From assembly GCF_008014675.1 (NCBI RefSeq), contig NZ_VOXD01000005.1, positions 62,001-126,000 on the forward strand: a stretch of 64,000 nucleotides of DNA, written 5' to 3'. Under the pieces are notes generated by a model. That model was not told the origin of the DNA and searched no databases. It worked only from the letters and a program-made list of their open reading frames with translations. Below are positions 2,510 through 57,544 of the stretch, piece after piece. This DNA is from Neolewinella aurantiaca (lineage in GTDB: Bacteria > Bacteroidota > Bacteroidia > Chitinophagales > Saprospiraceae). The position numbers and the translations under genes are program-made. Each line of letters begins with the position of its first letter. The stretch's first letter is position 1.

Positions 2510-2525
2510 GCGCGGCCGCAGGTGC
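2510..2525 (-). repeat. 16-bp NotI-palindrome repeat, exact copy 1
   Basis: GCGCGGCCGCAGGTGC, an exact match to the dispersed repeat, lies 20 bp after the rhomboid stop codon. A possible hairpin (CCGTTT/AAACGG, about 2530-2556) follows. Confidence 0.9.
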
Positions 2526-2630
2526 AATAAACCGTTTAGGGCCCAGTCGCCAAACGGGCTCAATGTGCTGCTTTCTCCTCGCAGAAACGGTGCATTAACG
2601 GGTATCCACAGGTTCCTTGATTCTTTCCCT

Positions 2631-2646
2631 GCACCTGCGTTCGCGC
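2631..2646 (+). repeat. 16-bp repeat, diverged copy (2 mismatches)
   Basis: GCACCTGCGTTCGCGC differs from the repeat consensus at two inner positions. It lies 90 bp upstream of ychF and just upstream of its likely promoter. Confidence 0.6.
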
Positions 2647-2662
2647 CTAAATATAAATGCCG

Positions 2663-2670
2663 TACTTTTG
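2663..2670 (+). promoter_or_regulatory. Putative -7 box of ychF
   Basis: TACTTTTG fits the Bacteroidota -7 consensus TAnnTTTG and lies 67 bp before the ATG. No good -33 TTG is present at the usual distance, so this is a tentative call. Confidence 0.4.
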
Positions 2671-2736
2671 CGCCCGATTTTCGGGTCAGTACTGCTGCCC
2701 GTCATCAATCTATTCTTCTATCAATCTTATCCTCCC

Positions 2737-3834: not shown

Positions 3835-3903
3835 TACCGTTTACTGCCCGCAACAGCGGGAATTGATCTGGTGCCGTAGAAACGGTACACATTTGAAAAC
3901 TTT

Positions 3904-3941
3904 AGCGCCCGGTACTCATTACAACATGAATACCGGGCGCT
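3904..3941. terminator. Stem-loop terminator after ychF
   Basis: The arms AGCGCCCGGTA (3904-3914) and TACCGGGCGCT (3931-3941) pair perfectly over 11 bp. The hairpin lies 70 bp after the ychF stop codon. A T-tract is absent, so efficiency is uncertain. Confidence 0.55.
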
Positions 3942-3950
3942 GTATGTGTG

Positions 3951-4040
3951 GTCGGAGGGCATCGTAAAGCCGATCTCTGCGGATTTTGCTTCGATTTTCG
4001 GATAAATGGCCGGTATATCCTGAAGTCTGGTATCGTTCAT
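3951..4040 (-). pseudogene. Remnant of an O-methyltransferase N-terminus
   Basis: On the minus strand about 30 codons read MNDTRLQDIPAIYPKIEAKS followed by AEIGFTMPSD. From memory this closely resembles the first residues of Bacteroidota class I SAM-dependent O-methyltransferases, where a GSLLRTLV-type segment follows. After PSD the resemblance stops and the frame runs into the ychF terminator hairpin. No catalytic SAM-binding domain is present nearby. I read it as a deletion remnant. The short length makes the family call moderate. Confidence 0.45.
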
Positions 4041-4147
4041 GTTCGTGTATTTTAGTGCAATCACAGGGATTTCGCACTGGAATACAAACGATCAGGCAAC
4101 CCAAACTACGACCGGCAATGGCGTCTTAGCCGCTCAATTCCTGTTCC

Positions 4148-4188
4148 GACGTGAAAACTCAGCTTATTTAAGCTGAGCTTTCACGTCG
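4148..4188 (-). terminator. Hairpin overlapping a gene end
   Basis: CGACGTGAAAACTCAGCTTA pairs with AAGCTGAGCTTTCACGTCG around a short AT loop. The stem includes the last codons of the minus-strand gene ending at 4164, so it is probably its terminator. Confidence 0.55.
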
Positions 4189-4574: not shown

Positions 4575-4648
4575 AGCAGCAAGAACGGGCTACAATTTGC
4601 TCCGAAGAAATTAAATAGACCAAATTGAAGATCGGTACGACGAGCGGG

Positions 4649-6646: not shown

Positions 6647-6667
6647 CTCCTGCCCTACGGTATTATC

Positions 6668-9205
6668 ATGACTCCACCCACTCCAAAAGACCAATTGAAG
6701 CTCCACGTAGCCGCCTTCGACCAGGTGAGCGAAGGAGCGTTGTGGGCCGATAAACAGGGACGGATCGTATACGCCAACGAATCGGCGTGTCGTCTTTTGG
6801 GCTACACCCAGAGTCAGCTCCTCCGGAGTTCTTACCTGGAGATCGACCCGAATTATAGTCTGCTGGGCTGGAAAAAGTTCTGGAAACAACTCGACCCGGC
6901 AGGAGCGACCCACCTGGAGACACAGTTTGTAAACAGTGGCGGCAACTTTTTTGGTGTCCGGGGGCACATCGGCTTCGATGCTGCGGCGGAAGACCAATCA
7001 TTATGTCTGATTGTTTTTGGGTCGACAGAGGAAGGAAGCCGGGAGGCAGATTTGTTGGAAGCCGTTCAGCGCGACGGAAAAATCGGAAGCTGGGAATACC
7101 ACCTTGGCACCGGACAGGTGTACGTGTCTCCGCTGCTGCGCGAATGGCTCGGCTGGTCGTTGGAGCGTGACTTTTACCCCTCCGGAGACCTGGCCGAAAA
7201 GCTTTCTTCGCACCTGCTGCCGAGCCAGAAAAAAGAAGCGGCTACTCTTCTCGGCCGGTTAGCCAATGCGGCACGTTCCGCCGAAGTAACCCTCGATTTG
7301 CAACTGAGCGACGGGCAGACGCGCAGCCTCTTGCTCCGTGGCCAATCGGTCGAAAATGAAGTAGAAGTACGTAAAATTTACGGATCGGCCGTGCGGGAAG
7401 AAGACCACCTTGCGGGCATGATTCCTGCCGGTGATGAGTCTACCTTTCAGTTTAGTCTCGACCAAAGCCGCGACGCCATCGTCTGGGCAGACCTTGCCGA
7501 TGGCCACATTGCCTACGCCAACGCCCGCGCCCGCGAACTCACCCGTTATTCCCGCCAGGAAATAATTGGCCTGCCCGCAAACCTCCTGAGCCCGGATTAC
7601 AGAGAAGCATTGGCCAAACTACGCTCCGAGCACTACCTGGAACTGAGCACCAACACGATCCGTAAAGACGGAACGCCCTACCCTACCCGGGCGGGCATGC
7701 ACTTCCACGCAGCACCCGACGGAAAAGAGTACGCCGTGATCGTTAGTCACGACAGCGGACGGGAAACCGCTAACTCCGAAGACCTTCAACTTCATACCGC
7801 GACCCTGAACACCCTGCAGGAATGGGTCATCTGGCTCAACAACGATCAGTGCGTTGAAATGATGAACACCGCGGCGCGCAAAAAACTGAGCCGGCGGACC
7901 ACCCGCGAACTGACCGGTTTGCCGCTGACCGAGCTTATGCCAGAGTTGGAAATACCCGCCCTCGCACAGGTACGTCAGGAACAACTCGACGGCCGGGTCC
8001 GCCCCGACACCGACTACGTTTACGCCGACACAAACGGCAAGGAAAGAACCCTGCAGGTGCGCTTTGTTCAGGTAGCCGCCGGAAGCCGGATGTACCTCGG
8101 CGTAATCTGCCGGGACGTAACCAACGAAATGGCCGGCCGCCGCCGGTTGCAGGAAGCAAAGCGCCGCGTAGACGAACTGCGCAAGCAACTGGAAAGCGAA
8201 AACGAAGCCCTGAAAGAAGAAATAGATACGGTTACCTCCTCCGGGCCGATCATTACGGTATCCAAAAAGTACATGAAAGTGCTCGGCCAGATCGGTCAGG
8301 TAGCAGGCACCGACGCCACCGTGCTCGTTACCGGAGAAACCGGAACGGGAAAAGAACTCCTGGCCCAGAGCATTCACAACTTCAGTAACCGGGGAACCCG
8401 CAGAATGGTAAGCGTTAACTGTGCCGCGCTGCCGGAAAACCTGATTGAAAGTGAGCTGTTCGGTCACGAGCGCGGCTCGTTTACCGGGGCATTCGCCCAG
8501 AAAAAAGGTAAGTTCGAGCTCGCCGATGGAGGGACCATCTTCCTCGATGAAATTGGTGAGCTTCCGCTCGAGATGCAGTCCAAATTGCTCCGGGCACTGC
8601 AGGAGGGAGAGATTCAGCGCATTGGTTCTCAGGATGTGATCAAGGTCGACGTGCGCGTAGTCGCCGCTACCAACCGTGACCTGGAGCGGATGATCGGAGA
8701 AGGCACTTTCCGGGAAGATCTTTTCTACCGCCTCAACGTATTCCCGATTCATAACCTGCCGCTCCGCGAGCGGCCCGAAGACATCCCCGTACTGGTGAAG
8801 CACTTCACCAAAATTTACGCCCAGAAGATGGGCCGGCCGGTAACGCAGATCAACCAGAAAGACCTCGAAAAATTAGTCGCTTACGACTTCCCCGGCAACG
8901 TTCGTGAGTTGATCAACCTGGTTGAGCGGGCGGTGATCACCTCTAAAGACTCAACGCTCAACCTCGGCGTATCGTTACGCGCACTGCGCCGTACCGACCG
9001 GGGAGACGGCAAGCTTTCGCTGTCTCCCAACGATCGCCTGGTTTCCTTCGAAGAAATGCAACGGCAGTACATTATGGAGGCTTTGCGCAGAACGAAAGGA
9101 AAAGTAACCGGCGCCGGAGGCGCCGCCGAACTGCTGGACGTAAACGGACGGACGCTGATGAGCAAAATGGTTAAGCTGGGGATCGACCGGGGAGACTTTA
9201 CGTAA
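6668..9205 (+). CDS. PAS-domain sigma-54-dependent transcriptional activator
   Basis: The 845-residue protein has several PAS-like sensor repeats over roughly residues 10-500. A coiled linker (about 500-530) leads to an AAA+ sigma-54 interaction domain with Walker A GETGTGKE near residue 556, a GSFTGA loop near 603 in place of the usual GAFTGA, and a FLDEIGELP Walker B segment. A Fis-type helix-turn-helix ends the protein ([23 protein letters not shown]). There is no receiver domain, so the input is probably sensed directly by the PAS domains, as in FhlA-like activators. A close paralogue lies at 34.0-36.8 kb. Confidence 0.92.
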
Positions 9206-9350
9206 GGTATTTACCCGGCCGCATTCGCCTCCGATGAACAGCCGGAACGAACGACTTCAAGGCGCGTGAACCTGCCCGGAGACGATTTAAGCTGTGTGAA
9301 ACTGCTACCGACACACTTAGATCAGGGCCTAAGTGGTTCAGGGATGAGGG

Positions 9351-9366
9351 GCGCGGCCGCAGGTGC
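9351..9366 (-). repeat. 16-bp NotI-palindrome repeat, exact copy 2
   Basis: GCGCGGCCGCAGGTGC lies between the sigma-54 regulator and dnaX, followed by a partial second GAGGTGCG. Confidence 0.9.
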
Positions 9367-9557: not shown

Positions 9558-9562
9558 CGATT

Positions 9563-11326
9563 ATGAGCAGTTTTGTAGTATCCGCAAGAAAGTACCGCCC
9601 CGTCCGCTTCGATGAAGTTGTCGGGCAGCAGCACGTATCGCAGACACTCAAGAACGCTTTACAGACGGATCACCTCGCGCACGCCTTTCTCTTTTGTGGC
9701 CCGCGCGGTGTAGGTAAAACCACCTCGGCACGTATTCTGGCCAAGGTCCTCAACTGTCAGAACCGCACGGAAGACTTCGAGCCCTGTAACCAATGCCAGA
9801 GCTGCGTGTCTTTCGACAGCGACGCCAACATTTACATCAGGGAGCTGGATGCGGCGAGTAACAACTCCGTAGACCACATCCGCTCGTTGAACGAGCAGGC
9901 GCGCATCCCGCTGGACCAGGGCAAGAGCCGGGTATTCATCGTGGATGAGGTTCATATGCTCTCTCAGGCGGCCTTCAACGCCTTCCTGAAAACGCTGGAA
10001 GAGCCGCCCGAACGGACCGTCTTCATTCTCGCAACGACAGAAAAGCATAAGATCATCCCGACGATCCTGTCGCGCTGTCAGGTGTTCGATTTCAAGCGGA
10101 TTCAGCCGAAGGACATCATTACGCACCTGCAGGGAATTTGCGAGCAGGAAGGCATTGATGCCGAAGAGGACGCCCTCCACATCATCGGCCAGAAAGCCGA
10201 CGGCGCCCTGCGGGACGCCCTCTCCATCTTTGACCGGATGACGAGCGCCGACGCCAATAAGATCACCTACGAAGGCGTAATCGAAAACCTGAACGTACTC
10301 GACTACGACTACTACTTCAGAGCGGTAGACTTTCTGCTGACCGAAGACCGAGGTGGTATCATGCTATTGTTCGACGACATCCTCCGCAAAGGGTTCGACG
10401 AAGACCTCTTCCTCAACGGGCTGGCGGCTCATGTCCGCGACCTTCTGGTTTGCAAAGACCCCGAAACCCTGAAACTGCTGGAAGTAGGAGAACGCCTCCG
10501 GGCACGCTACCACCAACAAGCCGCTATTGCCCCAACGGATATTTTGCTGACGCTGCTCAACATAGCGAACGACTGTGACCTTGGTTTCCGGCTGGCGCGC
10601 AATAAACGGCTGCACGTTGAAATGGCGTTGCTCAAGATGGCCGCTGTTCAGCGGGCATTCAGGAACGAACCAGTCGCCATTGCGCCTTCAACTTCCCCCG
10701 CACCTGCGGCCGCGCCGGAAAAAAAAAGTCCTGACCCCACCACTACCGTAAACGCGGAGGGTCCGGCGGGCGGAGAACTCGCCGCGCCACAAGTCGCAAA
10801 GCCCGAACTCGAGTCTCCTCCGAAATCCGCAGAGACTCCTGCGCCGGCAGCCGTAACTCCTCCGGTAGCACCGACGGCCTTTGGCACCATCGACATTGGT
10901 GACATGATGGCTGAAATTGAATCGGAAGAATCGGAGCTTACCGCCGCTGAAGACCTGCCGGAGCTTACTGACGAAACACTCACAACTGCCTGGGAGACGT
11001 TCAAACGCAATAATTCCGGCACCACCCTTGCCGTTAATATGAAGCGTGCCATCGGTAGTGTTGCCGGCGAAGAGATCCACGTTCGCATTGGTAGCCAGCG
11101 CGTTATGGCTTCCTTCCGGGAGGACACCAGCCTCATCATGTTCCTCCGGGAAACCTTCAAGCGGCCCGACCTGGTGATGCTGTTGAAAGTCGACGAAAGC
11201 CTGAGGCCCCAGAAATCTGAGGTAAAGAAACGGCTGACCGCAAAGGACAAATTCCTGGCCATGCGCGAGAAAAACCCTGCGATAGACAGTTTACGCAAGC
11301 GGTTTGATCTCCGGCCGGAAGAGTAA
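9563..11326 (+). CDS. dnaX: DNA polymerase III subunits gamma/tau
   Basis: The 588-residue product starts MSSFVVSARKYRPVRFDEVVGQ, as DnaX proteins do. It has Walker A GPRGVGKTTSAR from residue 46, a four-cysteine zinc module (CQNRTEDFEPCNQCQSC), VDEVHMLS Walker B and LSRCQVFDF sensor segments, then a Pro/Ala-rich linker near residues 375-450 and a tau-like C-terminal domain. It is the clamp-loader ATPase that couples the replisome. An exact copy of the 16-bp repeat sits in the linker and reads as PAPAAAP. I chose the start by homology; an in-frame ATG at 9497 lies upstream of the likely promoter. Confidence 0.96.
   Translation: MSSFVVSARKYRPVRFDEVVGQQHVSQTLKNALQTDHLAHAFLFCGPRGVGKTTSARILAKVLNCQNRTEDFEPCNQCQSCVSFDSDANIYIRELDAASNNSVDHIRSLNEQARIPLDQGKSRVFIVDEVHMLSQAAFNAFLKTLEEPPERTVFILATTEKHKIIPTILSRCQVFDFKRIQPKDIITHLQGICEQEGIDAEEDALHIIGQKADGALRDALSIFDRMTSADANKITYEGVIENLNVLDYDYYFRAVDFLLTEDRGGIMLLFDDILRKGFDEDLFLNGLAAHVRDLLVCKDPETLKLLEVGERLRARYHQQAAIAPTDILLTLLNIANDCDLGFRLARNKRLHVEMALLKMAAVQRAFRNEPVAIAPSTSPAPAAAPEKKSPDPTTTVNAEGPAGGELAAPQVAKPELESPPKSAETPAPAAVTPPVAPTAFGTIDIGDMMAEIESEESELTAAEDLPELTDETLTTAWETFKRNNSGTTLAVNMKRAIGSVAGEEIHVRIGSQRVMASFREDTSLIMFLRETFKRPDLVMLLKVDESLRPQKSEVKKRLTAKDKFLAMREKNPAIDSLRKRFDLRPEE
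10700..10715 (+). repeat. 16-bp NotI-palindrome repeat, exact copy 3, inside dnaX
   Basis: GCACCTGCGGCCGCGC is embedded in frame in the disordered Pro/Ala linker of dnaX. Confidence 0.9.
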
Positions 11327-14273: not shown

Positions 14274-14459
14274 AGCAAGATTGGGTTTGAGGGTTGCAAG
14301 GTAAAGCCTACGCACGACTAACGAAATTATCGTGCCAAAGCTTTTGTCGGCCCACCACTTCAGCAGGCTTTTGTCTTTTCCGTGCCGCACTTACTGTAAA
14401 CACGGGTTGGGAAAATGGGAAAACACGACCAGAGAGGCTCCGGTCAGGAAGTGATTCGG

Positions 14460-14475
14460 GCGCGGCCGCAGGTGC
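14460..14475 (-). repeat. 16-bp NotI-palindrome repeat, exact copy 4
   Basis: GCGCGGCCGCAGGTGC, 187 bp upstream of the SGNH hydrolase start and oriented towards it. It forms an inverted pair with the copy at 14625. Confidence 0.9.
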
Positions 14476-14624: not shown

Positions 14625-14640
14625 GCACCTGCGGCCGCGC
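14625..14640 (+). repeat. 16-bp NotI-palindrome repeat, exact copy 5
   Basis: GCACCTGCGGCCGCGC, 30 bp downstream of the haloperoxidase-like stop codon and inverted relative to the copy at 14460. Confidence 0.9.
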
Positions 14641-14670
14641 CCGTATACTTTACGCACGCGTGGGCTGGCA

Positions 14671-22222: not shown

Positions 22223-22894
22223 TGGATGTCGTTTTTAATAGCATCATTCAGTAGATCAACTGACGGCAAAGCGCTGGAACAAGGTTTTCTTCCGGGATGT
22301 TTAAGCCAAAAAACTGAAGGCCGGAATTTTCGCCGTGTATCGCTGACATTTTGGAGTCGCGCCAAGGTATTCAACTTATTGGCTTTGTACCGTAGTGCTA
22401 AAAAAAATAACAACACGTTTGCAATATGACCACCACAACGTCAGCAAATCCTGCTTGATATTACCTGTCTGAACAGGCATTGCTGACCCGGAAGCTGCAG
22501 GTTCCTGTTCGAACATCTTGCTTCAGGAGGCGCAAACGCAGGTGCAAAGAAAGGTTACGTCAAAACCACATTAACCATCCAACAATACGTACACTTGCCT
22601 GTCCTTACGCCCCGGCTAAGTAACTTTTACCTCCCACAACGCTCCAATGGGAGTGATTACAGGGTGCCATTCATCCGTCGGTTACGGGCGATCAAACGGT
22701 GACGTGAGTCATAAACGTCTTCCACTTAGGCGGTTTTGACGGTGTAAATGCGGGGCTAAAATTTACCGGTCTCTGCTGCACACTCATGCAACTTTCACCT
22801 TAGGATTTGTTGTGATGCCTCCGCCGCCGGAGCGGCAATAATTACATCTGTTCTTTCAGCCATCCTTCAGTAAAACCTCTAATTAAATTCCGAC
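22223..22894. other. Intergenic region, 672 bp
   Basis: The gap between the divergent RND operon and marC-like gene holds a diverged copy of the 16-bp repeat (22530), a small hairpin (CCTGTCTGAACAGG near 22466) and AT-rich promoter-like stretches. I see no convincing gene or remnant. Confidence 0.55.
22530..22545 (-). repeat. 16-bp repeat, diverged copy (3 mismatches)
   Basis: GCGCAAACGCAGGTGC keeps both ends of the repeat but not the NotI core. It lies upstream of, and points towards, the RND operon. Confidence 0.45.
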
Positions 22895-26164: not shown

Positions 26165-26971
26165 CTACCGGATCAATCGAAAACCAAGGTGATTCAACCC
26201 GCTGTCGGCGGGAGTGAACTGGCGTTGTTTAAAGTCAAATCCGGTACAATAGCTGGTGCTGCACAGAAAAGAACCTCCCTTAATAACCGATTCCTGAGTG
26301 GCCGTTTTTTTGGTTGCGGTCCACTCCCACACGTTTCCGCTGATATCGTATAGCCCGTTCGCTGCCGGAGGAAAAGATTTCACCGGAGCAATTCCCGGAA
26401 AGCCATCCAGCACATTGTCTTCGTAGGGAAACGGTCCTTGCCACCAGTTACCGGGGTATTTGCCGTCTGGCACCATTTCCTCTCCCCAGGGGAAGCTGGG
26501 GTACTGCCCCCCCTGGCTGGCCGCCCAGATCCATTCTTCTTCGGTGGGTAACTTTTTACCGATCCAGTCGGCGTAAGCATTGACGTCGCGCAGCGAGAGC
26601 TGAGTAACGGGGTGGTCGGGGGCAGCAGGCATCGAGTCCGGCCCCAGCGGAAAGCGCCAGGTTGCACTGTCGACCGGCATCCAGCTGAGGCTGTCTTTAT
26701 TGAACACCCCGGACCATCCGAAGTCTTCTGCTTCGGTAACGTACCCCGTTGCGTCCACGAATTTCGCGAACGCGGCCGTAGTTACTTCGGTAGCATCCAT
26801 CAGGAAGCCGGGCTGATCTGCGCCGTCGCCTGCAATCCAAACCATTCCTTCGGGAACATCCGCCGGAGGCAGCTTTTTCACTGCTCCTTCGCAACCAGTT
26901 ATTGTACCTGCGGCCGCGCCCAAAATGACGCACATCGTAACAAGCCTTATGCTGTATTTAATGATTTTCAT
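26165..26971 (-). CDS. Formylglycine-generating-enzyme-like lipoprotein (SUMF1 domain)
   Basis: The 268-residue protein has a lipoprotein signal ending AAAGTITGC and an FGE-sulfatase fold starting PEGMVWIAGDGADQPGF. It has NAYADWIGKKLPTEEEWIWAA, the NVWEWTATK block and GGSFLCSTSYCTGF. The two cysteines four residues apart match the active-site pair of true formylglycine-generating enzymes, so it could oxidise a cysteine of a sulfatase or similar protein, but no sulfatase gene is in the window. A one-mismatch copy of the 16-bp repeat encodes part of the signal peptide. Confidence 0.88.
   Translation of the reverse strand: MKIIKYSIRLVTMCVILGAAAGTITGCEGAVKKLPPADVPEGMVWIAGDGADQPGFLMDATEVTTAAFAKFVDATGYVTEAEDFGWSGVFNKDSLSWMPVDSATWRFPLGPDSMPAAPDHPVTQLSLRDVNAYADWIGKKLPTEEEWIWAASQGGQYPSFPWGEEMVPDGKYPGNWWQGPFPYEDNVLDGFPGIAPVKSFPPAANGLYDISGNVWEWTATKKTATQESVIKGGSFLCSTSYCTGFDFKQRQFTPADSGLNHLGFRLIR
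26904..26919 (+). repeat. 16-bp repeat, one mismatch, in a signal peptide
   Basis: GTACCTGCGGCCGCGC differs from the consensus at one base. On the coding (minus) strand it reads GAAAGT in the signal peptide of the SUMF1-domain lipoprotein. Confidence 0.8.
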
Positions 26972-31708: not shown

Positions 31709-32581
31709 TTATTCGAGCATAAATTTCACCGGGAGGTTAAAACGGACCCTAACCGGGCGTCCGCCCTGGATTCCCGGCCGGAACCGTTTTCCTTCATTAT
31801 TGATCGCCAGAACCGCTTTTATAGCCGATTCCGTACAACCAGCGCCTACCTCCCGGGCGGGAGAGACGTCTGTAATCGTTCCATCTTTCTCTACAATGAA
31901 GGAAATGACAACCGTCCCCTGGATTCCGTTCTCGCGCGCCAGCGCGGGGTACCTGACCCGTGATTGCACAAAACTCAGCAGTGCGCGGTCAGAACAAGCC
32001 TTTCGTTCATCCCCGGACAAGGGAAAACATTCTTCTCCAAAAACCGGCATTCGCTCAGCAAACAGCAGTGGTCCTTCATCGACAGGAGGAGGTGGTGGCG
32101 GAAGAGGTGGCGGCGGAGGCGGGGCCGCAGGTGCAACGGGTGTTGGAGGAGCAAGGTCACGGAGGATCGGCTCATCGGCGGAGATATCCTGGCTTTCGAA
32201 AGTTTCCGGCTCGGATTCAGGTTCGGCGACCGTCTCAATCACCGGCGGGGGCGGCGGGGGCGGTGGCGGTGGCGGCGGATGATTGGTTGGGGGAATCACC
32301 TCGTTGATTTCCAGGTCCGGCTCAATCGTGTAGCCCGCTAACACTTCCTGCGGTTGAAACTCGGTGAAGTTGATGGTAATAATGCTTGCGGCGATGGCAA
32401 GACAAAGGGAGAGACCATGTAAAGGAGTCGTAAAGCGAAAGGCGGCGTTTTTAGGGCGCTTGCCTTCGGGGGTGTTTGAACGGAGCGCACGGCGGAGAAT
32501 CAAAACCGTTAGCCCTGCCAGCAAGCATAAGCCACCCAGCCCCAGCAGCACAACTGTGCCACTGAAAATAAAGATCAGCAT
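31709..32581 (-). CDS. tonB: TonB family energy transducer
   Basis: The protein has two membrane helices near its N-terminus, a periplasmic linker with long proline runs, and a C-terminal TonB domain (VQSRVRYPALARENGIQGTVVISFIVEKDG). It carries proton-motive energy from ExbBD to outer-membrane receptors. I chose the ATG at 32581 (MLIFIFSGTVVLLG, 290 residues); a TTG at 32659 would add 26 residues. A one-mismatch copy of the 16-bp repeat encodes VAPAAPPP in the linker. The nearest receptor-like barrel is at 55 kb. Confidence 0.87.
   Translation of the reverse strand: MLIFIFSGTVVLLGLGGLCLLAGLTVLILRRALRSNTPEGKRPKNAAFRFTTPLHGLSLCLAIAASIITINFTEFQPQEVLAGYTIEPDLEINEVIPPTNHPPPPPPPPPPPPVIETVAEPESEPETFESQDISADEPILRDLAPPTPVAPAAPPPPPPLPPPPPPVDEGPLLFAERMPVFGEECFPLSGDERKACSDRALLSFVQSRVRYPALARENGIQGTVVISFIVEKDGTITDVSPAREVGAGCTESAIKAVLAINNEGKRFRPGIQGGRPVRVRFNLPVKFMLE
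32119..32134 (-). repeat. 16-bp repeat, one mismatch, in tonB linker
   Basis: GCGGGGCCGCAGGTGC has a single C-to-G change in the NotI core. It encodes alanine and proline in the disordered TonB linker. Confidence 0.8.
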
Positions 32582-32736: not shown

Positions 32737-32756
32737 GCACCTGCGCTGCGGCGCCC
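32737..32756 (+). repeat. 16-bp repeat, degenerate copy
   Basis: GCACCTGCGCTGCGGCGCCC keeps the first nine bases of the repeat and the GC-rich end, with an insertion in the centre. It lies between the receiver gene and tonB, preceded by TACTTT. Confidence 0.4.
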
Positions 32757-37023: not shown

Positions 37024-38238
37024 ATGCGCTGGTTTCTCTACTTCCTCCTCTTCCCTTTGTTCTTACTTACTCAGTCACAGGTAAGTATCTCGGCGCAAAA
37101 GGTCCTGGCACCACAGCCGGTTTCGCTGATTCCTGCTTCCGGTTACCCTTCTTACCCGGAATACATAGCGATAATGGAAGGCCTCGCAAAGCGCTATCCA
37201 GACAAATGCGCGTTGGAGATATGGGGAACATTACCTTCTGGCCGTCAAATTTTAACATTACATTTAACCAAAGAAATTGATAGTCCGATGGCGCGGCCGC
37301 AGGTGCTGTGTTCCGCTACCATGCATGGCGATGAGACGGCGGGCTACTGGTTGCTGCTCCAGCTGGCCGAGCAACTACTGATGAACAACCCCGGTAACGT
37401 TCTTGAAGACCTCGACATTTTCATCAATCCGCTGGCAAACCCCGACGGAGCCTACCGCCGCGGCAACGAAAGCCTCCGCGGCGCCAGCCGCGGCAATGCC
37501 GCCAACGTTGACCTGAACCGCAATTACCCTGACCCCGACGACGGCCCCCACCCCGATGGCTTCGACTATCAGCCGGAAACCCGAATATTCATGCAAGCCG
37601 CCCGGGAACACAGCTTTGACCTTGCCATCAACCTGCACGGAGGAGCGGAGGTATTCAATTATCCCTGGGATACTTACCGCGAGCGCCACCCCGACACGGA
37701 ATGGTGGAGCCGCATCAGCCGCGATTTTGCCAGCAGGGCCCAGACCGCCAGTGGCCGTAGCGGGTACTTCAACGACCGCCACAACGGAGTTACAAATGGT
37801 CATGACTGGTACCCCATCGCCGGCTCCCGGCAGGATTACATGAACTACTACCATCGTTGCCGCGAAGCCACCCTGGAGGTAAGCGACCGCAAACACTTCC
37901 CACCCGATGACCTGCCCCAGCTCTGGGACTGGATTTCGCCAGGCCTCCTGGGCTTCATCAATGAGGCACGCCTGGGCCTCCACGGCGTAGTAACCGACCG
38001 GGAAACCGGCAACCCGATTGCAGCTCAGCTGACTGTTCCTGGTCATGACCGGTCAAACTCCGACGTCTTCGCCGATGGGGCCTACGGCAACTTCCACCGC
38101 TACCTGGCCGAAGGCGACTATCAAGTGCTTTTCTCGGCTCCCGGCTTTGTACCACAGTGGCGAAACGTTACCATCCGTAATGGCCGGCGGACAAATATTG
38201 AGGTGAAGATGGAACGCCTGGAAGCCACCAGAAAATAA
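37024..38238 (+). CDS. M14 family zinc carboxypeptidase
   Basis: The 404-residue protein has a signal peptide (MRWFLYFLLFPLFLLTQSQ) and an M14 domain with zinc ligands in TMHGDETAG (His and Glu) and in INLHGGAEVFNYPWD (His), substrate-binding NVDLNRNYPD, and catalytic Glu in EATLEVSD. The last 80 residues form a carboxypeptidase-regulatory-like beta-sandwich (LHGVVTDRETGNPIAAQLTV). It is probably secreted and trims peptides. An exact copy of the 16-bp repeat lies in the coding region and reads MARPQVL. Confidence 0.92.
   Translation: MRWFLYFLLFPLFLLTQSQVSISAQKVLAPQPVSLIPASGYPSYPEYIAIMEGLAKRYPDKCALEIWGTLPSGRQILTLHLTKEIDSPMARPQVLCSATMHGDETAGYWLLLQLAEQLLMNNPGNVLEDLDIFINPLANPDGAYRRGNESLRGASRGNAANVDLNRNYPDPDDGPHPDGFDYQPETRIFMQAAREHSFDLAINLHGGAEVFNYPWDTYRERHPDTEWWSRISRDFASRAQTASGRSGYFNDRHNGVTNGHDWYPIAGSRQDYMNYYHRCREATLEVSDRKHFPPDDLPQLWDWISPGLLGFINEARLGLHGVVTDRETGNPIAAQLTVPGHDRSNSDVFADGAYGNFHRYLAEGDYQVLFSAPGFVPQWRNVTIRNGRRTNIEVKMERLEATRK
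37291..37306 (-). repeat. 16-bp NotI-palindrome repeat, exact copy 6, inside M14 gene
   Basis: GCGCGGCCGCAGGTGC encodes ARPQV within the catalytic domain, just before the first zinc-binding motif. Confidence 0.9.
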
Positions 38239-38283: not shown

Positions 38284-38299
38284 GCACCTGCGGCCGCGC
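38284..38299 (+). repeat. 16-bp NotI-palindrome repeat, exact copy 7
   Basis: TTTGCACCTGCGGCCGCGCC contains the exact 16-mer, 170 bp upstream of pruA and in its direction. Confidence 0.9.
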
Positions 38300-38402
38300 C
38301 TCAGTCTCTCTCAATTCAGAAGTAAAGATGGCAAGGACGAAGCTCATCACTGCCCTCAGCCGCCAACGATGGGCTGAATTAAAGCGCCCATCAATCAACC
38401 AA

Positions 38403-40721: not shown

Positions 40722-42437
40722 ATGACCGTACAAACCTGGACTTTCCTTATCGTCGGCCTGACCTTCGCCCTCTACATTGCTATTGCCATTTGGGCCAGAG
40801 CGGGATCTACCCACGAATTCTACACTGCCGGCGGAGGCGTTCACCCCATAGCCAACGGCATGGCTACTGCGGCCGACTGGATGAGCGCGGCGAGCTTTAT
40901 TTCCATGGCCGGCATTATCAGTTTTGCCGGTTACGATGGTTCTGTCTATCTGATGGGCTGGACCGGAGGCTACGTTTTACTGGCCCTCCTGCTTGCGCCC
41001 TATCTGCGAAAATTCGGCAAATTCACCGTTCCGGACTTCATCGGAGACCGTTACTACAGCAACACGGCCAGAACTGTGGCGGTCGTTTGTGCCATCGTGG
41101 TCAGTTTCACCTATGTTGCCGGTCAGATGCGCGGGGTAGGTCTGGTTTTCAGCAGGTTTCTTGAGGTGGAAATCAATACCGGCGTGTACATCGGAACGGC
41201 CATCGTGTTCTTCTACGCCATCATTGGCGGGATGAAGGGTATTACGTACACCCAGGTCGCACAATACTGCGTGCTCATCTTTGCGTTCATGGTTCCTGCG
41301 ATCTTTATTTCGTTGAACATGACCGGTGAAATCATCCCTCAACTCGGTTTCATCGGAGAGATGAGCGACGGGAGCGGAATGAGCCTGCTGGACAAACTCG
41401 ACGGATTGCACCGCGAACTGGGCTTCGAAGAATATACGAACGGTACCAAGTCGACGATTGATGTTTTCGCGATCACCTTCGCCCTCATGGCCGGCACGGC
41501 GGGTTTACCGCACGTAATTGTTCGTTTCTTCACGGTCCCGAAGGTGAAAGACGCCCGCATTTCGGCGGGCTGGGCGCTCCTGTTCATCGCCATCCTGTAC
41601 ACCACCGCTCCGGCGATTGCGGCCTTTGCCCGTACCAATCTGATCGACACGATGCACAACCAGCCTTACTCCGAAATGCCGGAGTGGTTCAAAAAGTGGG
41701 AAGAAACCGGCCTGATTGCCTTCACCGATAAAAACGCAGACGGCCTCATCACCTACGGTCCGGGAGCAATGACGGACGCCACGACCGCCAACGAAGTTTA
41801 TATCGACAACGACATCATGGTGCTCGCCAACCCCGAAATTGCCGGCCTGCCCGACTGGGTGATCGCCCTGGTGGCAGCGGGTGCCCTGGCTGCGGCACTC
41901 TCTACCGCAGCGGGGCTGCTGCTCGTGATCTCTACGGCCATTTCGCGCGACCTGATGAGAATGCAGGTGAAGCCCGACATGAGCGAAAAAGAAGAATTGT
42001 GGTGGGCACGGGGCGGGGCCGCAGGTGCAGTGATCATTGCGGCATACTTCGGGATCAATCCTCCGGGTTTCGTTGCGGCGACGGTGGCACTTGCCTTCGG
42101 CCTTGCCGCGGCAAGTTTTTTCCCGGCCATTGTGCTTGGCATCTTCGATAAGCGGATGAACCGCGAAGGAGCCATCTCCGGAATGGTCATCGGCATACTG
42201 CTCATGTTTGGCTACATGGCCGTCTTCAAGCTCGGCTGGTTTGTTGATGAGGTTCCACCAAGCTCCAGCTGGTGGTTTGGCATCTCGCCCGAAGGCTTCG
42301 GGACGGTAGCGATGATGGTCAACCTCGTCGTAGCGGCCACCGTGAGCCGCATGACCTCGCCGCCACCGGCGGCGGTCCAATCCATTGTCGAAGACATCCG
42401 GATCCCGAAGGGGGCCGGAGCAGCAATAGACCACTAA
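40722..42437 (+). CDS. Sodium:solute symporter (VC_2705/ActP-like)
   Basis: The 571-residue protein has about 13 membrane helices and the SSS signatures EFYTAGGGVHPIANGMATAADWMSAASF and GTAGLPHVIVRFFTVP. An extra acidic periplasmic segment lies near residues 315-375. The DUF4212 partner places it in the VC_2705 subgroup, thought to import acetate or other short acids. Acetyl-CoA synthetase occurs 6 kb downstream. A one-mismatch copy of the 16-bp repeat codes for GGAAGAV. Confidence 0.92.
   Translation: MTVQTWTFLIVGLTFALYIAIAIWARAGSTHEFYTAGGGVHPIANGMATAADWMSAASFISMAGIISFAGYDGSVYLMGWTGGYVLLALLLAPYLRKFGKFTVPDFIGDRYYSNTARTVAVVCAIVVSFTYVAGQMRGVGLVFSRFLEVEINTGVYIGTAIVFFYAIIGGMKGITYTQVAQYCVLIFAFMVPAIFISLNMTGEIIPQLGFIGEMSDGSGMSLLDKLDGLHRELGFEEYTNGTKSTIDVFAITFALMAGTAGLPHVIVRFFTVPKVKDARISAGWALLFIAILYTTAPAIAAFARTNLIDTMHNQPYSEMPEWFKKWEETGLIAFTDKNADGLITYGPGAMTDATTANEVYIDNDIMVLANPEIAGLPDWVIALVAAGALAAALSTAAGLLLVISTAISRDLMRMQVKPDMSEKEELWWARGGAAGAVIIAAYFGINPPGFVAATVALAFGLAAASFFPAIVLGIFDKRMNREGAISGMVIGILLMFGYMAVFKLGWFVDEVPPSSSWWFGISPEGFGTVAMMVNLVVAATVSRMTSPPPAAVQSIVEDIRIPKGAGAAIDH
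42013..42028 (-). repeat. 16-bp repeat, one mismatch, in symporter gene
   Basis: GCGGGGCCGCAGGTGC, the same variant as in tonB and the barrel gene, encodes GGAAGA at the edge of a helix. Confidence 0.8.
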
Positions 42438-42823: not shown

Positions 42824-43063
42824 ACATTCATTGCACCTGCGGCCGCGCCTTTTAGCCTCTTTCCGAACCCCGTTGGCAACGTACTCTCGTTGCGCAACTT
42901 CCCCGAAGACGCTACTTTCCGTCTGGTTGACACCAACGGACGCATCCTTCGGCAGGGTGCATTGAAGCCGCAACTGGAAATATCCGATTTGCCCGCCGGA
43001 GCGTACCAGTTTACAGCTACCGGCCATAACTGGCAAGTGAACCAACGGGTAATCAAGGAGTAA
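42824..43063 (+). pseudogene. Orphan T9SS C-terminal sorting domain remnant
   Basis: The plus strand is open from a TAA at 42821 to a TAA at 43061 and reads as a type A sorting domain: FSLFPNPVGN, FRLVDTNGRILRQG, LEISDLPAGAYQF and a final NQRVIKE. There is no start codon and no cargo domain. It begins immediately after an exact copy of the 16-bp repeat, which reads in frame as APAAAP. It is probably the last piece of a lost secreted protein, cut by a deletion or recombination at the repeat. Confidence 0.65.
42833..42848 (+). repeat. 16-bp NotI-palindrome repeat, exact copy 8
   Basis: GCACCTGCGGCCGCGC lies at the junction with the orphan sorting domain. Confidence 0.9.
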
Positions 43064-43123
43064 GGTGTTGCAGTGGCTTCAGCGTTTAGTTGGGGCCACT
43101 CTAAATCATTGGCGGAATTGCAG

Positions 43124-43139
43124 GCGCGGACGCAGGTGC
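43124..43139 (-). repeat. 16-bp repeat, one mismatch
   Basis: GCGCGGACGCAGGTGC lies between the sorting-domain remnant and the flavin oxidoreductase gene. Confidence 0.75.
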
Positions 43140-48430: not shown

Positions 48431-48446
48431 GCACCCGCGTTCCCGC
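48431..48446 (+). repeat. 16-bp repeat, diverged copy (3 mismatches)
   Basis: GCACCCGCGTTCCCGC, preceded by CTCTTT, lies 60 bp upstream of acs and in its direction. Confidence 0.45.
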
Positions 48447-48506
48447 AAAAAAATCAAAGACAAACCCTACATTGGTACCCGCAATTAAAGTTTAAAGATC
48501 CAAATC

Positions 48507-50411
48507 ATGCTACCTACCCAAATCAGCTCTTTTGAGCATTACCAGTCAGAATACGCCCGCTCAGTCGAAAACCCCGAGGGCTTCTGGGCCGGAGAGGCGG
48601 AAACCTTCACCTGGCATAAAAAGTGGGACAACACCCTGACCTGGAACTTCGAAGGCCCTGAGGTGAAGTGGTTTGAAGGAGGCAAGTTGAACATCACCGA
48701 AAACTGCCTCGACCGGCACCTCGCGGAACGCGGCGACCAAACCGCCATCCTTTTCGAGCCCAACGAGGCTGGTGACCCGGCACGTCACTTCACTTACCGG
48801 CAGCTTCACTCCCACGTTTGTAAAGTGGCCAATGCCCTGCGCGAACTCGGCATCAACAAAGGAGACCGGGTCTGTTTTTATATGCCGATGGTGCCGGAGC
48901 TGGCTTTCTCGGTACTGGCCTGCGCCCGCATCGGCGCCATCCATTCCGTCGTCTTCGCCGGCTTCAGCGCCCAGGCGCTGGCGGACCGGGTGAACGACGC
49001 CGATTGCAAAATGATTATCTGCTCGGACTTCAATAAACGCGGTAGCAAAAACATTGCGGTTAAAGAGGTCGTCGACGAAGCGATGGCCATTGGCTGCCCC
49101 TCCGTCGAGACCGTTATGGTGCACAGAAATACTGGCGAAGACATCGGTTGGGACGAGAGCTACGACGTCTGGTACCACGAAAAAGTAGATGGTCAACCCG
49201 AGCAGTGCGAAGCCGAAGTGATGGACGCCGAAGACGTTCTTTTCATCCTCTATACTTCCGGATCGACGGGCAAGCCCAAGGGGGTTGTCCATACCTGCGG
49301 AGGCTACATGGTGTACGCTGCGTACAGCTTCCTCAACGTATTTCAGTACAAACCGGGAGACGTGTACTGGTGTACGGCCGATATCGGCTGGATCACCGGA
49401 CACAGTTATATTCTGTACGGTCCGTTGTTGTGCGGCGCGACAACGATGATGTTTGAGGGCGTGCCGACCTACCCCGACGCCGGCCGGTTTTGGGAAATTT
49501 GTGCAAAGCACAAGGTGAACCAGTTTTACACCGCTCCAACCGCCATCAGAGCCCTGATGGCCAAAGGAGATCACTTCGTGGAGGGCCACGACCTGAGCAG
49601 CCTCAAGGTGATCGGATCGGTCGGGGAGCCCATTAATCTGGAGGCCTGGGAATGGTATAAAGAACACGTTGGCAAAGGCGAAGTCCCTATTGTGGACACC
49701 TGGTGGCAAACGGAAACCGGTGGAATCATGATTACCGGCGTTGGTGGCCACAGCCCCCAGAAAGCAACTTTTGCCGGGTATCCGTTGCCGGGCATTCAAC
49801 CGTGCCTAGTCGATAAAAACACCCTGAAAGTAGAGACAGAAAATCCCGCTGCGGGCCTCCTTGCGGTCAAGTTTCCGTGGCCGGGCATTCTGCGTACGAC
49901 CTGGGGCGACCACGTGCGCTGCAAGAACACCTATTTCAGCACCGTTCCGGGTATGTACTTTACCGGCGACGGAGCGCGGCGCGACGAGAATGGCATGTAC
50001 CGGATCGTCGGCCGGGTCGACGACGTCATCAACGTGTCCGGTCACCGGATGGGGACTGCGGAGGTGGAAAATGCGATCGACGAGCATCCGCAAGTAGTGG
50101 AATCGGCCGTCGTTGGTTACCCGCACGACATCAAGGGGCAGGGCATTTACGCATACATCATTCTGGGCCCGGAGGCAGGTGCAAACGATGCTTTGAGAGC
50201 AGAGATCGTGGCGACGGTTCGCCAGGAGATCGGCCCCATCGCGAAGCCCGACAAGATCCAATTCGTCTCCGAACTGCCCAAAACCCGGTCGGGTAAAATC
50301 ATGAGGAGGGTTCTGCGCAAGATCGCCGCCGGCGAAGGAGATTCTTTGGGGGATGTGTCTACCTTATTGAACCCTGAAGCCGTCCGGACTATTATTGAAG
50401 GTAGAGTTTAG
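48507..50411 (+). CDS. acs: Acetyl-CoA synthetase
   Basis: The 634-residue protein is of full length and has the ANL motifs: LYTSGSTGKPKGVVHT for the phosphate loop, VDTWWQTETGG, GRVDDVINVSGHRMGTAEVE for the hinge region, and PKTRSGKIMRR near the end with the lysine that is acetylated in regulated Acs proteins. It makes acetyl-CoA from acetate, ATP and CoA. The nearby DUF4212/symporter pair would supply acetate. Confidence 0.97.
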   Translation: MLPTQISSFEHYQSEYARSVENPEGFWAGEAETFTWHKKWDNTLTWNFEGPEVKWFEGGKLNITENCLDRHLAERGDQTAILFEPNEAGDPARHFTYRQLHSHVCKVANALRELGINKGDRVCFYMPMVPELAFSVLACARIGAIHSVVFAGFSAQALADRVNDADCKMIICSDFNKRGSKNIAVKEVVDEAMAIGCPSVETVMVHRNTGEDIGWDESYDVWYHEKVDGQPEQCEAEVMDAEDVLFILYTSGSTGKPKGVVHTCGGYMVYAAYSFLNVFQYKPGDVYWCTADIGWITGHSYILYGPLLCGATTMMFEGVPTYPDAGRFWEICAKHKVNQFYTAPTAIRALMAKGDHFVEGHDLSSLKVIGSVGEPINLEAWEWYKEHVGKGEVPIVDTWWQTETGGIMITGVGGHSPQKATFAGYPLPGIQPCLVDKNTLKVETENPAAGLLAVKFPWPGILRTTWGDHVRCKNTYFSTVPGMYFTGDGARRDENGMYRIVGRVDDVINVSGHRMGTAEVENAIDEHPQVVESAVVGYPHDIKGQGIYAYIILGPEAGANDALRAEIVATVRQEIGPIAKPDKIQFVSELPKTRSGKIMRRVLRKIAAGEGDSLGDVSTLLNPEAVRTIIEGRV

Positions 50412-51033: not shown

Positions 51034-51049
51034 GCACCTGCGGCCGCGC
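51034..51049 (+). repeat. 16-bp NotI-palindrome repeat, exact copy 9
   Basis: GCACCTGCGGCCGCGC lies 35 bp after the hypothetical gene and 174 bp upstream of aroC, in its direction. Confidence 0.9.
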
Positions 51050-51143
51050 CCGTTAGCTACTTCAGGCTATCATAGATTGTTTTGCCACCGTAAATTCCCG
51101 GCAATCCCGGGCTGGAAACTTCTTTTACCGCACCCTGCTGCGT

Positions 51144-54851: not shown

Positions 54852-54942
54852 GGGAAGGTTGGTTTTACGGGGGGCAAAAGTACAAAATTAGATCGCCTTT
54901 GGCCACCGTTAACATTAGCTTTAATACCCATCGTAAAGCCCA

Positions 54943-54994
54943 ACAACCAGAGGGTGGATGATTTCATGCAGAAATGCGACCTCCCTCTGGTTGT
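54943..54994. terminator. Terminator of the barrel gene
   Basis: ACAACCAGAGGG (54943-54954) and CCCTCTGGTTGT (54983-54994) pair perfectly around a 28-bp loop, 45 bp after the barrel gene ends on the minus strand. Confidence 0.6.
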
Positions 54995-55039
54995 ACTGAC
55001 TTATCAAGAAACTATCATCAGATTTGAAAGCGCAACCCC

Positions 55040-57544
55040 TTACCCTCCTACTCTTCCTGCTTCTTCGGAAAGTCCCGTATTCCGTTTACGACTCTTCACT
55101 TTCTGATTACCAAAGTTGTAGCTCAGGCTGAGCGTTGCCCTGCGACTGTCCCAGTTTCCTTTCCCGTTGCTCACCAAACCATTGAATTCGGAGCGGCCAC
55201 GCCAGCCAGATGTGTACAAAAGGTCGTTGCCGCTGATTTTCACGTTCAACTGATTACCAAAGAACTTCTTCTGAAGGCCGACGTTGAGTGCTCCACTCGT
55301 TTTGTACTCGAAAACCCCACCCCAAACGCCCGGGCCGGAGAAGTAGCCACTCAGTTCCGCCGTAAAGCCTTTTGGCAGATTGAACGTTTGCTGCGAAAAA
55401 ATGCTGTACGTGAAAGCCTGTACGTCAATCGTCGCTCCGTTCTCATACGTCGCCTGGTTGTCCAGGTAGCCCGCGGAGGCGTTGAAGAAGGCATTCCATT
55501 TCGGGGTAATCGTAAACGGCAGTGCAGCGCTGAAACTGTAGTTGGTTTGGGTAGCGAGATTGTCCCAGCCAATAAAGCCTGCTGCGGGATTGATGTCGTC
55601 CGGACCAATCAGGCGGGTGATCTGGTTGCTCGTCCGGCTGTAACCCAGCTTAAAATTGTACCGGTAGGCCAGGGTATAACCGAGTTCGAGGTTATCGACA
55701 ATTTCAGGATTGAGAAAGGGATTTCCTTTTTCGTAACTAAGTTGGCTGATCTGGTTCCGGAAAGGATTCAGCACGTTGTAATCCGGCCGGTTGATTCGTC
55801 GCCCGTAGTTCAACGATACGGTGTTCCCCTTTTGCTGGTTGATGGCGTAAGTGATTCCGGCACTGGGGAAAAAGCTCACGTAGTTGAGTTCGACCGGTGG
55901 TTCCTCGAGGTCTGCACGAAAGGGGCTCAGTATGCCCATTGCGTCGGTCACTTCCGCTCTCAGTCCGGCCGAGTAGCTGACCTGCTCGCTGAGCTTGCCC
56001 GCGTAGTTTACGTAAGCGGCAAAGACGTTTTCGTCGTAGTCGAACTGGTTAGATCTATCTCGGTTGAGTACTCTCTCTCCGTCTGCTTCCACGTCGAAAT
56101 AAAAGAAGGTGTTGTTGGTACCTACCTGACTGAACTTCAGGCCCGCTCCGAACTGGCCTCCCGCAAGTGGTTGTTCGTAATCCAGTTTGGCGGTATAGAT
56201 ATCGATATCCGTTGGGGTATCGAAGTAGTTGTTGATGACGTTGATCGTTTCGGTTCCGTCGCCGCTCAGGTACCTGTTGGGTTGATCGCGCAGGTTATCG
56301 TTACGGAAGCGGCCGTAATCGAGATCAACGTTCAGGCTCTTACCCTTGCCCGCGTCATAGCGGTAGTTGATGTTGTACGTCTGCTGTCCGCGGTCGTTGT
56401 TACCGTTGGTTTCTGCCCGCAGGAGGCTATCCGGGTTTTCCTGCAGAGCTCCTGCTGTGAACAGGTCGATGTTGTTGTAAGAATAAAAGTCTCCTCCGCT
56501 GTTCTGGCCGGAGGCCAGAAAACCGATGGTATGTTTATCGTTCAGGAAGAAGTCTGTTCCAATCCGGAAACTCGGGTTAGCGACTTTGTTGAAAAAGGCG
56601 GTATTCTCTTCCAGATAAAGGCCGTTTTGGTAACTCTGGAACTCGAGATTGGTGTAGAACTCGCTAAGGCCGTACCCCAGGGTGCCGAAAACGTTGAGGT
56701 TGCGATTGCGGTAATTCCCCGTAAAATTGCCGTTCGCCTGGCTGTAACGGCCCTGGCTCGCTGTGGCGGAGACGGTACCGTTAAATCCTTCGTTTTCGTT
56801 TTTCTTCAGGCGGATATCCAGAATACCGGCGTTACCTTCTGCTTCGTACTTTGCTCCGGGGTTGGTGATGATGTCGATGCGGTCGATCTGCTCTGCGGTG
56901 AGGCTGCGCAGGTAATTAGACAGGTCTTCTCCGGCCAGGGGAAGCCGTTTCCCGTCAACGTAAACCAGCACCCCCGAACGGCCGAGCACGTTGATGTTGT
57001 TGTTATTGTCTACCGTAACACCGGGGGCTTTTCGCAGCAGGTCAAGTCCGTTGTCACCAACGGCATTAATGGTTCCCTGAACGTTGAAAACCGTCCGGTC
57101 GGGTTTGATTTCCACAAGCGCTCGGGTAGCGGTAACGGTGGCTTCAGCAAGCTCAACGGCTGCGGGCGCGAGCTGCAATATACCGAGATCGAGCACACCG
57201 TTTTTCACCTCGATACCCTCCCTGCGCAGGTCCGGAGCGCCGAGGTAAGTCACCACAAGGTCGTAAGTACCATCGGTAATACCGTCCATTTTAAAGAGGC
57301 CGGCGTCATCTGTGGTTTCAACCTTCACGAGTTCTCCTACCGTAGAATACAAGGCTACGTTAGCGAACGCAACGGCCACGCCGTCGGCATCCTGGACCTG
57401 GCCTTTGATTTCGAGTTCCCCCTTCAGCTCTATGGCTTCGGCGTTTGGCCCGGCGACATTCTGGGCCATCAGGGCGGGGCCGCAGGTGCAAAGTAAGATC
57501 ACTAAATAGCAAAGTCGGGTAAAGCAGGGTATTGTCTGTTTCAT
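55040..57544 (-). CDS. TonB-dependent-receptor-like outer membrane beta-barrel protein
   Basis: The 834-residue protein has a signal peptide (CYLVILLCTCGPALMAQ), a carboxypeptidase-regulatory-like domain (ELEIKGQVQDADGVAVAFANV), a plug domain with DRTVFNVQGTINAVGDNGLDLL and GVLVYVDGKRLPL, and a long barrel with many YxxxxxYxxR-type strands of the PF14905 class. It is probably an uptake receptor with unknown ligand; no SusD partner is present. The start at 57544 gives a proper signal peptide. A one-mismatch copy of the 16-bp repeat codes for the end of that signal peptide. Confidence 0.9.
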   Translation of the reverse strand: MKQTIPCFTRLCYLVILLCTCGPALMAQNVAGPNAEAIELKGELEIKGQVQDADGVAVAFANVALYSTVGELVKVETTDDAGLFKMDGITDGTYDLVVTYLGAPDLRREGIEVKNGVLDLGILQLAPAAVELAEATVTATRALVEIKPDRTVFNVQGTINAVGDNGLDLLRKAPGVTVDNNNNINVLGRSGVLVYVDGKRLPLAGEDLSNYLRSLTAEQIDRIDIITNPGAKYEAEGNAGILDIRLKKNENEGFNGTVSATASQGRYSQANGNFTGNYRNRNLNVFGTLGYGLSEFYTNLEFQSYQNGLYLEENTAFFNKVANPSFRIGTDFFLNDKHTIGFLASGQNSGGDFYSYNNIDLFTAGALQENPDSLLRAETNGNNDRGQQTYNINYRYDAGKGKSLNVDLDYGRFRNDNLRDQPNRYLSGDGTETINVINNYFDTPTDIDIYTAKLDYEQPLAGGQFGAGLKFSQVGTNNTFFYFDVEADGERVLNRDRSNQFDYDENVFAAYVNYAGKLSEQVSYSAGLRAEVTDAMGILSPFRADLEEPPVELNYVSFFPSAGITYAINQQKGNTVSLNYGRRINRPDYNVLNPFRNQISQLSYEKGNPFLNPEIVDNLELGYTLAYRYNFKLGYSRTSNQITRLIGPDDINPAAGFIGWDNLATQTNYSFSAALPFTITPKWNAFFNASAGYLDNQATYENGATIDVQAFTYSIFSQQTFNLPKGFTAELSGYFSGPGVWGGVFEYKTSGALNVGLQKKFFGNQLNVKISGNDLLYTSGWRGRSEFNGLVSNGKGNWDSRRATLSLSYNFGNQKVKSRKRNTGLSEEAGRVGG
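57474..57489 (-). repeat. 16-bp repeat, one mismatch, in a signal peptide
   Basis: GCGGGGCCGCAGGTGC is the same variant as in tonB and the symporter. On the coding strand it reads CTCGPA at the signal peptidase region. Confidence 0.8.

Follow-up and report, generated by a model that had tools for sequence, protein, structure and literature searches.

A 64,000-nt stretch of the Neolewinella aurantiaca genome (contig NZ_VOXD01000005.1; the whole stretch is called the window here, and its own genome G000) carries many copies of a long, asymmetric DNA word that recurs throughout the genome and exists in several dialects within the genus Neolewinella/Lewinella. By analogy with the uptake sequences of the Neisseriaceae and Pasteurellaceae, we give about an even chance to the reading that this repeat works in a similar manner, as a self-DNA recognition signal of the genus.

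The first-pass annotation had described a 16-bp palindromic repeat centred on a NotI site. The exact 16-mer is indeed highly iterated genome-wide, with 274 copies (124 on the plus and 150 on the minus strand) in the 6.0-Mb genome (104 contigs) and 0 for the reversed pattern, and the accompanying suggestion that it marks a DNA-recognition target is probably right as well. All nine exact copies and all five one-mismatch copies were located in the window where they had been reported, and a search for the 16-mer with up to two mismatches returned 17 matches versus 0.09 expected from shuffles, far too low for a chance occurrence, as had been claimed. The true unit is longer than 16 bp. We modelled the motif with a weight matrix iterated on 464 kb and then 864 kb of G000, which contains 32.5 bits of information in all and 24.6 bits within a 17-bp core; the full motif reads AACC-n6-TTTGCACCTGCG-N4-CGCC, the 16-mer being its commonest form. 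In order, the consensus consists of a weak pyrimidine-rich flank, AACC ∼10 bp upstream, TTT, GCACCTGCG-N4-CGCC and a weak A-rich tail, and a minority form has its left part moved by one base (CATCCTGCG). The matrix finds 283 copies in the 864 kb (3.28 per 10 kb), which extrapolates to perhaps ∼2,000 copies per genome, and these contain 109 distinct 17-bp cores, the commonest of which (54 of 283) is that of the 16-mer.

Within the window the matrix finds 20 copies (Table 1), adding those at 7210, 29341 and 50167 to the earlier list. The weaker copies listed there fared unevenly, as those at 2631 and 22530 have two and three mismatches, respectively, the one at 48431 reaches 35.8 bits under the final matrix, and that at 32737 exists as a longer-loop variant, GCACCTGCGCTGCGGCGCC, but is missed by the matrix. 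Instead of the proposed one copy per 4–5 kb the density is ∼1 per 3 kb by matrix, and the exact 16-mer occurs once per 22 kb genome-wide, so the exact form is locally enriched in the window. Copies do lie in both orientations, inside and between genes, judged here and below by our own simple gene calls, in which some genes are missed.

The NotI palindrome is incidental to the motif. The right half alone is palindromic, its central letters vary and the left half is conserved, which rules out a palindrome of the NotI or HIP1 type. HIP1 of cyanobacteria, which had been proposed as a model, resembles the motif in being highly iterated and genome-wide; it is, however, a perfect 8-bp palindrome, GCGATCGC, with cognate orphan methyltransferases (PMC4390886), whereas the motif is asymmetric and longer, with a 17-bp core, a small covarying stem and species dialects, and HIP1 is thus a poor fit. 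The stem is a small dyad, GCG..CGC, whose positions 8 and 13 form a G-C pair in 266 of 283 copies. Among the 17 others, 13 are complementary (10 T-A, 3 C-G) versus 0.46 expected and a maximum of 4 in 5,000 permutations; in matches to CACCTGC-N6-GC the pair is complementary in 193 of 203, mostly as G-C itself. Therefore the word is perhaps read as a hairpin on one strand.

Dialects were compared in 21 genomes of the genus, with the reversed pattern as the control. The exact 16-mer is present in 20 of 60 genomes searched (G000 included), all of them in the genus and with 1 to 688 copies each, and G001 is the sole genus genome without it. All 21 lie above the reversed control for at least one dialect, GCACCTGCGnCCGCGCC, ..GGCAGCGCC, ..CCCCGCC, CCTGCGCTCCGnCGCC or TGCTACTTTGnnAGnC, the weakest excesses being 61 versus 8 in G004 and 108 versus 15 in G016. 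A relaxed core is well above the control in most of the 21 and near background in G001 (11 versus 4) and G011 (9 versus 4); the loss of the motif system that this suggested for both genomes was rejected, as each has its own dialect. That of G011, TGCTACTTTGnnAGnC, reaches 892 copies (at most one mismatch) versus 5 reversed, and at most 3 in any other genome, and for CCTGCGCTCCGnCGCC the counts are 324 in G001, 132 in G007, 60 in G015 and 0 to 38 elsewhere, with 0 reversed throughout. GCACCTGCGGCAGCGC is counted 390 times in G014 (0 reversed), 52 times in G006, 25 times in G002 and no more than 9 times in the others, and ..CCCCGCC is favoured by G012, G017 and G009.

These dialects broadly follow a tree of DnaX, in which G011 lies outside the other 19, the genomes with GCGnCCGCGCC form one clade, with G014 inside it beside G019, and G009 pairs with G012, G004 with G017 and G001 with G007. 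For G004, G013, G016 and G020 a matrix did not resolve the dialect. Seeds were too few for a matrix of their own in these four and in G001, G007, G011 and G015 (re-seeding gave a clean matrix for G011, a partly noisy one for G001 and mostly noise for G007 and G015), G003, G008, G018 and G010 were not included, and the G002 matrix converged on another repeat, G002 being left out of the gap tests described below. In a wider set of 298 genomes from the family, counts of the relaxed word run from 45 to 1,198 for the six sampled members of the genus and reach at most 16 in the others. The highest count outside the genus, 16 versus 0 reversed, belongs to G140, perhaps a relative with another dialect. 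No comparable word was found de novo in the small samples of G021 (94 kb), G022 (51 kb), G023 (84 kb), one Phaeodactylibacter locus and pooled Saprospiraceae loci, and the contigs of G024 were too short for this search. Separately, sampled stretches of G016, G013, G004 and G002 contain other strongly repeated short words (ACATCCGATGT, ACGTCCGACGT, CCGTCCAACGG and GCTGCGCAGC); those of G016, G013 and G004 vanish when counted per 1-kb bin and so look like local arrays.

The motif is concentrated between genes, where 96 of 160 copies lie in ∼16% of the bases, a density ∼8-fold that within genes, and the copies are unpolarised. If the motif were an RNA-level element, such as a terminator, attenuator or processing hairpin, this would agree with the covariation of the dyad, with the folding of some plus-then-minus (+-) pairs of copies as long hairpins, and with antisense copies often lying just 3′ of stop codons. 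Genic copies, however, show no orientation preference (30 sense, 34 antisense), convergent gaps, the expected place of terminators, hold 0.71 copies per kb (7 copies) versus 1.41 per kb for divergent and tandem gaps, and copies are mostly single (31 close pairs among 283). The sense/antisense balance and the low density in convergent gaps disfavour an RNA element, which we consider improbable.

In G000 every pair of copies within 200 bp is inverted, with 26 minus-then-plus (-+), 5 +- and 0 tandem pairs versus ∼15 pairs expected in all, and in G005 there are 8 -+, 1 +- and 0 tandem pairs versus ∼3 expected. Close inverted pairs in G000 are often 76–95 bp apart. With copies <300 bp apart merged first, spacing is also more even than random in G000 (coefficient of variation (CV) 0.71 versus 0.915 ± 0.06, 0 of 2,000 simulations) and in G005 (CV 0.57 versus 0.88 ± 0.13, P 0.0005). 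Even spacing in two of four genomes, the excess of close divergent pairs in G000 and G005 and the intergenic preference would all suit a protein that organises the chromosome or binds DNA globally, either as a nucleoid-associated protein or by bridging the inverted pairs, and that reads the motif in the cell, with selection keeping the ∼2,000 sites. We nevertheless think such a protein unlikely to be the explanation, as the pair excess is missing in G012, G014 and G009 (no -+ pair within 200 bp in any of them, and one tandem pair each in G012 and G009) and a regulator that has so many sites would hardly accommodate the almost complete change of the word seen in G011 and G001. In addition, conserved genes carry copies in their codons in several reading frames (as APAAAP linkers, as ARTQVQ, as HLRPRP and, in signal-peptide-like starts, as the CTC..AQ end), and a dimer on double-stranded DNA would not be expected to produce a covarying stem.

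Occurrence throughout the genome, both in and between genes, would suit a signal for recombination or segregation, as exemplified by Chi and the FtsK orienting polar sequences (KOPS). Chi and KOPS are polar signals. Strand counts of the motif are within 2 of equal on five of six stretches (12 versus 19 on the sixth, C12; counted without reference to the origin), and the motif is far longer than 8 bp and forms dialects inside one genus. The strand balance disfavours a signal of this type, to which we attach hardly any probability.

Repetitive extragenic palindromes and bacterial interspersed mosaic elements (REP/BIME) with REP-associated tyrosine transposases (RAYTs) have a short stem, inverted pairs, many copies and an intergenic bias, all of which the motif shares. 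A mobile single-strand hairpin element of this type, or a miniature inverted-repeat transposable element (MITE), scattered by a Y1 transposase would explain the covarying stem (13 of 17 at positions 8/13) and the inverted pairs, and Y1_Tnp genes occur in 20 of 21 genomes (PF01797, a family broader than RAYT). Unlike REP/BIME, however, most genic copies replace codons. Relative to the closest genome lacking the word, 27 of 40 genic sites have no gap within 5 residues and 2 of 40 lack at least 4 residues (strict test of 81 site-by-genome pairs from 40 sites, with identity of 50% or more and a subject free of any dialect core), and a fixed-length insertion is therefore excluded as the general origin. 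The number of Y1_Tnp genes is moreover unrelated to copy number (in G018, a fragmented assembly, 0 were found alongside 744 relaxed cores), and the arms of inspected -+ pairs differ from each other in sequence. Insertion of a REP or MITE is disfavoured by the gap tests and the Y1_Tnp counts, and we rate it as very unlikely.

Where genomes whose majority dialects differ share a site, each copy carries the letter of its own genome in 6 of 9 pairs at position 12, and the same holds for 6 of 9 at position 11; in the other three pairs at each position one copy of the two does. Many of the pairs come from the DnaX site, so they are not independent of one another. The word thus often follows the local dialect at shared sites, most clearly as GCACCAGCGGCAGCGCA (HQRQRT) in G014 versus GCACCAGCGGCCGCGCA (HQRPRT) in G019, the wordless G015 having HGRDRV. 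At the DnaX linker CAG or CCCC forms are found in G014, G012, G017 and G004 and degenerate forms in G005 and G002, and no motif copy is found in G006, G019 or G011. Just 3′ of the linker copy, the window's dnaX has a run of nine A's (10719-10727), and a run of at least eight is present in the matching part of 18 of 20 genus genes (DnaX loci L101-L120), none being found in G009 and G012. This run resembles the slippage site known in Thermus dnaX and, judged by sequence, could yield a short gamma subunit.

Eight stretches >9 kb in the 864 kb of G000 are free of copies. The longest, 22.7 kb (C12:23667-46352; L170, L171), encodes KilA-N, DDE transposase-type, UPF0236, AbiEii-like ATPase and cation-efflux proteins among 10 chosen open reading frames (ORFs) that were scanned, and we take the UPF0236 gene to be transposase-like. 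Going by this island, one of the two long gaps of G000 that were examined, the motif may be scarce in acquired DNA.

The copy number far above chance, the dialects, the mostly gap-free genic sites, the intergenic preference, the balanced strands, the covarying dyad, the even spacing in G000 and G005 and the mobile-type genes of the longest gap speak for a self-DNA recognition signal. Taken together these features come near those reported for the DNA uptake sequence (DUS) of the Neisseriaceae, which leads us to favour an uptake bias plus recombination as what maintains the word. Like the motif, the DUS has thousands of copies, mostly intergenic, with close inverted pairs and dialects congruent with phylogeny, one of which (wadDUS) has a one-base insertion (PMC3630211, PMC2397512). 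For the DUS, few copies in acquired DNA (PMC2397512) and no orientation bias (PMC1939737) are reported as well. Unlike the DUS, the motif belongs to another phylum, has a 17-bp core with weak flanks and a covarying stem, and is found without a convincing type IV pilus ATPase. The uptake signal sequence (USS) of the Pasteurellaceae has a conserved core with weak flanking tracts and is not known to have a stem. It resembles the motif in its dialects, two of which (Hin, Apl) are described, and in an extended 17-mer form (PMC12616744), and differs from it by a core of 9 bp rather than 17 bp (PMC1626085) and by the stem of the motif.

Under the self-recognition reading, DNA with the local dialect would be preferred by a receptor that belongs to a pathway of DNA uptake or transformation, and recombination of the imported DNA into the chromosome would enrich and homogenise the word, mostly at tolerant places, while the dyad would be recognised on one strand in the form of a small hairpin. 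Uptake is proposed as the agent by analogy and no convincing type IV pilus ATPase was found, so we do not file the motif as a DUS. All 21 genus genomes have ComEC and 20 of them have DprA, the exception being a 55%-complete genome. Matches to the pilus/secretion ATPase family PF00437 are poor in the 21 genomes, the best covering ∼84 of 370 positions in ORFs of ∼950 aa and those of 11 genomes being just at the cut-off (24.9–25.5 bits). With no convincing pilus ATPase, the route, if it is uptake, is probably not a type IV pilus, and a receptor of the known type, the minor pilin predicted for the USS (PMC12616744), is unlikely for this motif. Within Bacteroidota, the phylum of the motif's host, Riemerella anatipestifer needs ComEC and DprA for transformation, together with proteins that do not resemble the known machinery (PMC8459023), and R. 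columbina shows a preference for DNA of its own (PMC7965970), so a pilus-independent route of uptake appears plausible in this phylum. The candidate words in Riemerella are simple overrepresented k-mers of unknown function, unlike the long, dialect-forming word described here (PMC7965970). A more specific version, in which Bacteroidota recognise self DNA independently of type IV pili by a small hairpin label on single-stranded DNA, with dialects free to diverge through compensatory changes in the stem and to keep species genetically apart, is one that we advance tentatively and would not expect to hold in full.

A number of observations weigh against a self-DNA recognition signal. ComEC and DprA occur too in bacteria without known competence, the search of the 21 genomes for PF00437 gave short matches only (pilins, secretin and other pilus parts were not searched), and no report joining Lewinella with natural competence was found in the open-licence literature. 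The 17-bp core is longer than the DUS (10–12) or the USS (9), and we know of no covarying stem described for either. The dialects are not exclusive, as G005 is mixed between ..CCG and ..CCC, some CAG copies occur in G019 and 38 copies of the G001-type word in G002, and G015, which has the G001-type word, lies apart from G001 and G007 at the unresolved base of the DnaX tree. Motif sites show gaps more often than control positions do (24 of 81 versus 5.5%; 53 of 143 in a laxer test of 325 starting sites, 74 with passing alignments, 321 alignments in all), probably because many sites lie in variable linkers. On its right the 22.7-kb gap is bounded by a copy, shared with G012, within an AcrB-type efflux gene, and giant ORFs occupy one other long gap of G000 (C12, L175) and one of G014. 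Finally, spacing is no more even than random in G014 and G012, and uptake words are reported to be not especially evenly spaced (PMC1939737).

Table 1. Motif copies in the window, with strand and context
Feature	Position	Strand	Context
Motif copy GCACCTGCGGCCGCGCC	2509..2525	-	Intergenic; left half of inverted -+ pair with 2631
Motif copy GCACCTGCGTTCGCGCC	2631..2647	+	Intergenic; right half of inverted pair with 2509..2525
Motif copy GCACCTGCTGCCGAGCC, stem variant GCT..AGC	7210..7226	+	In sigma-54 activator gene; conserved in L021
Motif copy	9350..9366	-	Intergenic, upstream of dnaX
Motif copy	10700..10716	+	dnaX Ala/Pro linker (APAAAP), immediately 5′ of A run
Motif copy	14459..14475	-	Intergenic; inverted -+ pair with 14625
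Motif copy	14625..14641	+	Intergenic (own gene calls); partner of 14459..14475
Motif copy GCACCTGCGTTTGCGCC	22529..22545	-	Intergenic
Motif copy GTACCTGCGGCCGCGCC	26904..26920	+	Antisense near start of minus-strand gene (signal-peptide-like N-terminus by eye)
Weaker motif copy, 24.3 bits	29340..29356	-	In gene
Motif copy GCACCTGCGGCCCCGCC	32118..32134	-	Intergenic (own gene calls)
Longer-loop variant GCACCTGCGCTGCGGCGCC	32737..32755	+	Read from sequence; missed by matrix
Motif copy with exact 16-mer, 23.1 bits, weak flanks	37290..37306	-	Counted intergenic, yet within ORF 37024-38238 (peptidase M14)
Motif copy, exact 16-mer	38284..38300	+	Intergenic
Motif copy GCACCTGCGGCCCCGCC	42012..42028	-	In sodium:solute symporter gene
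Motif copy, exact 16-mer	42833..42849	+	Intergenic (own gene calls)
Motif copy GCACCTGCGTCCGCGCC, 44.0 bits, top score of window	43123..43139	-	
Motif copy GCACCCGCGTTCCCGCA	48431..48447	+	Upstream of acetyl-CoA synthetase-like gene
Motif copy GCACCTGCCTCCGGGCC, stem variant GCC..GGC	50166..50182	-	In acetyl-CoA synthetase-like gene
Motif copy, exact 16-mer	51034..51050	+	Intergenic (own gene calls)
Motif copy GCACCTGCGGCCCCGCC	57473..57489	-	Intergenic (own gene calls)

To our knowledge, sequence-specific labels for DNA uptake are established only in the Neisseriaceae and Pasteurellaceae, both of which have type IV pili. In agreement with the first-pass annotation, no description of the motif in Lewinella/Neolewinella or Bacteroidota was found among the matches listed from the open-licence literature, nor was one of any sequence-specific self-label system in Bacteroidota. 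If the reading as a self-DNA recognition signal is true, the motif would add an independent instance, with dialects, from another phylum and from a genus without a convincing pilus ATPase; it would point to an as yet unrecognised receptor, and the reason for bacterial self-DNA labelling would become testable by comparison. The motif may also help to mark out foreign DNA in genomes of this group.

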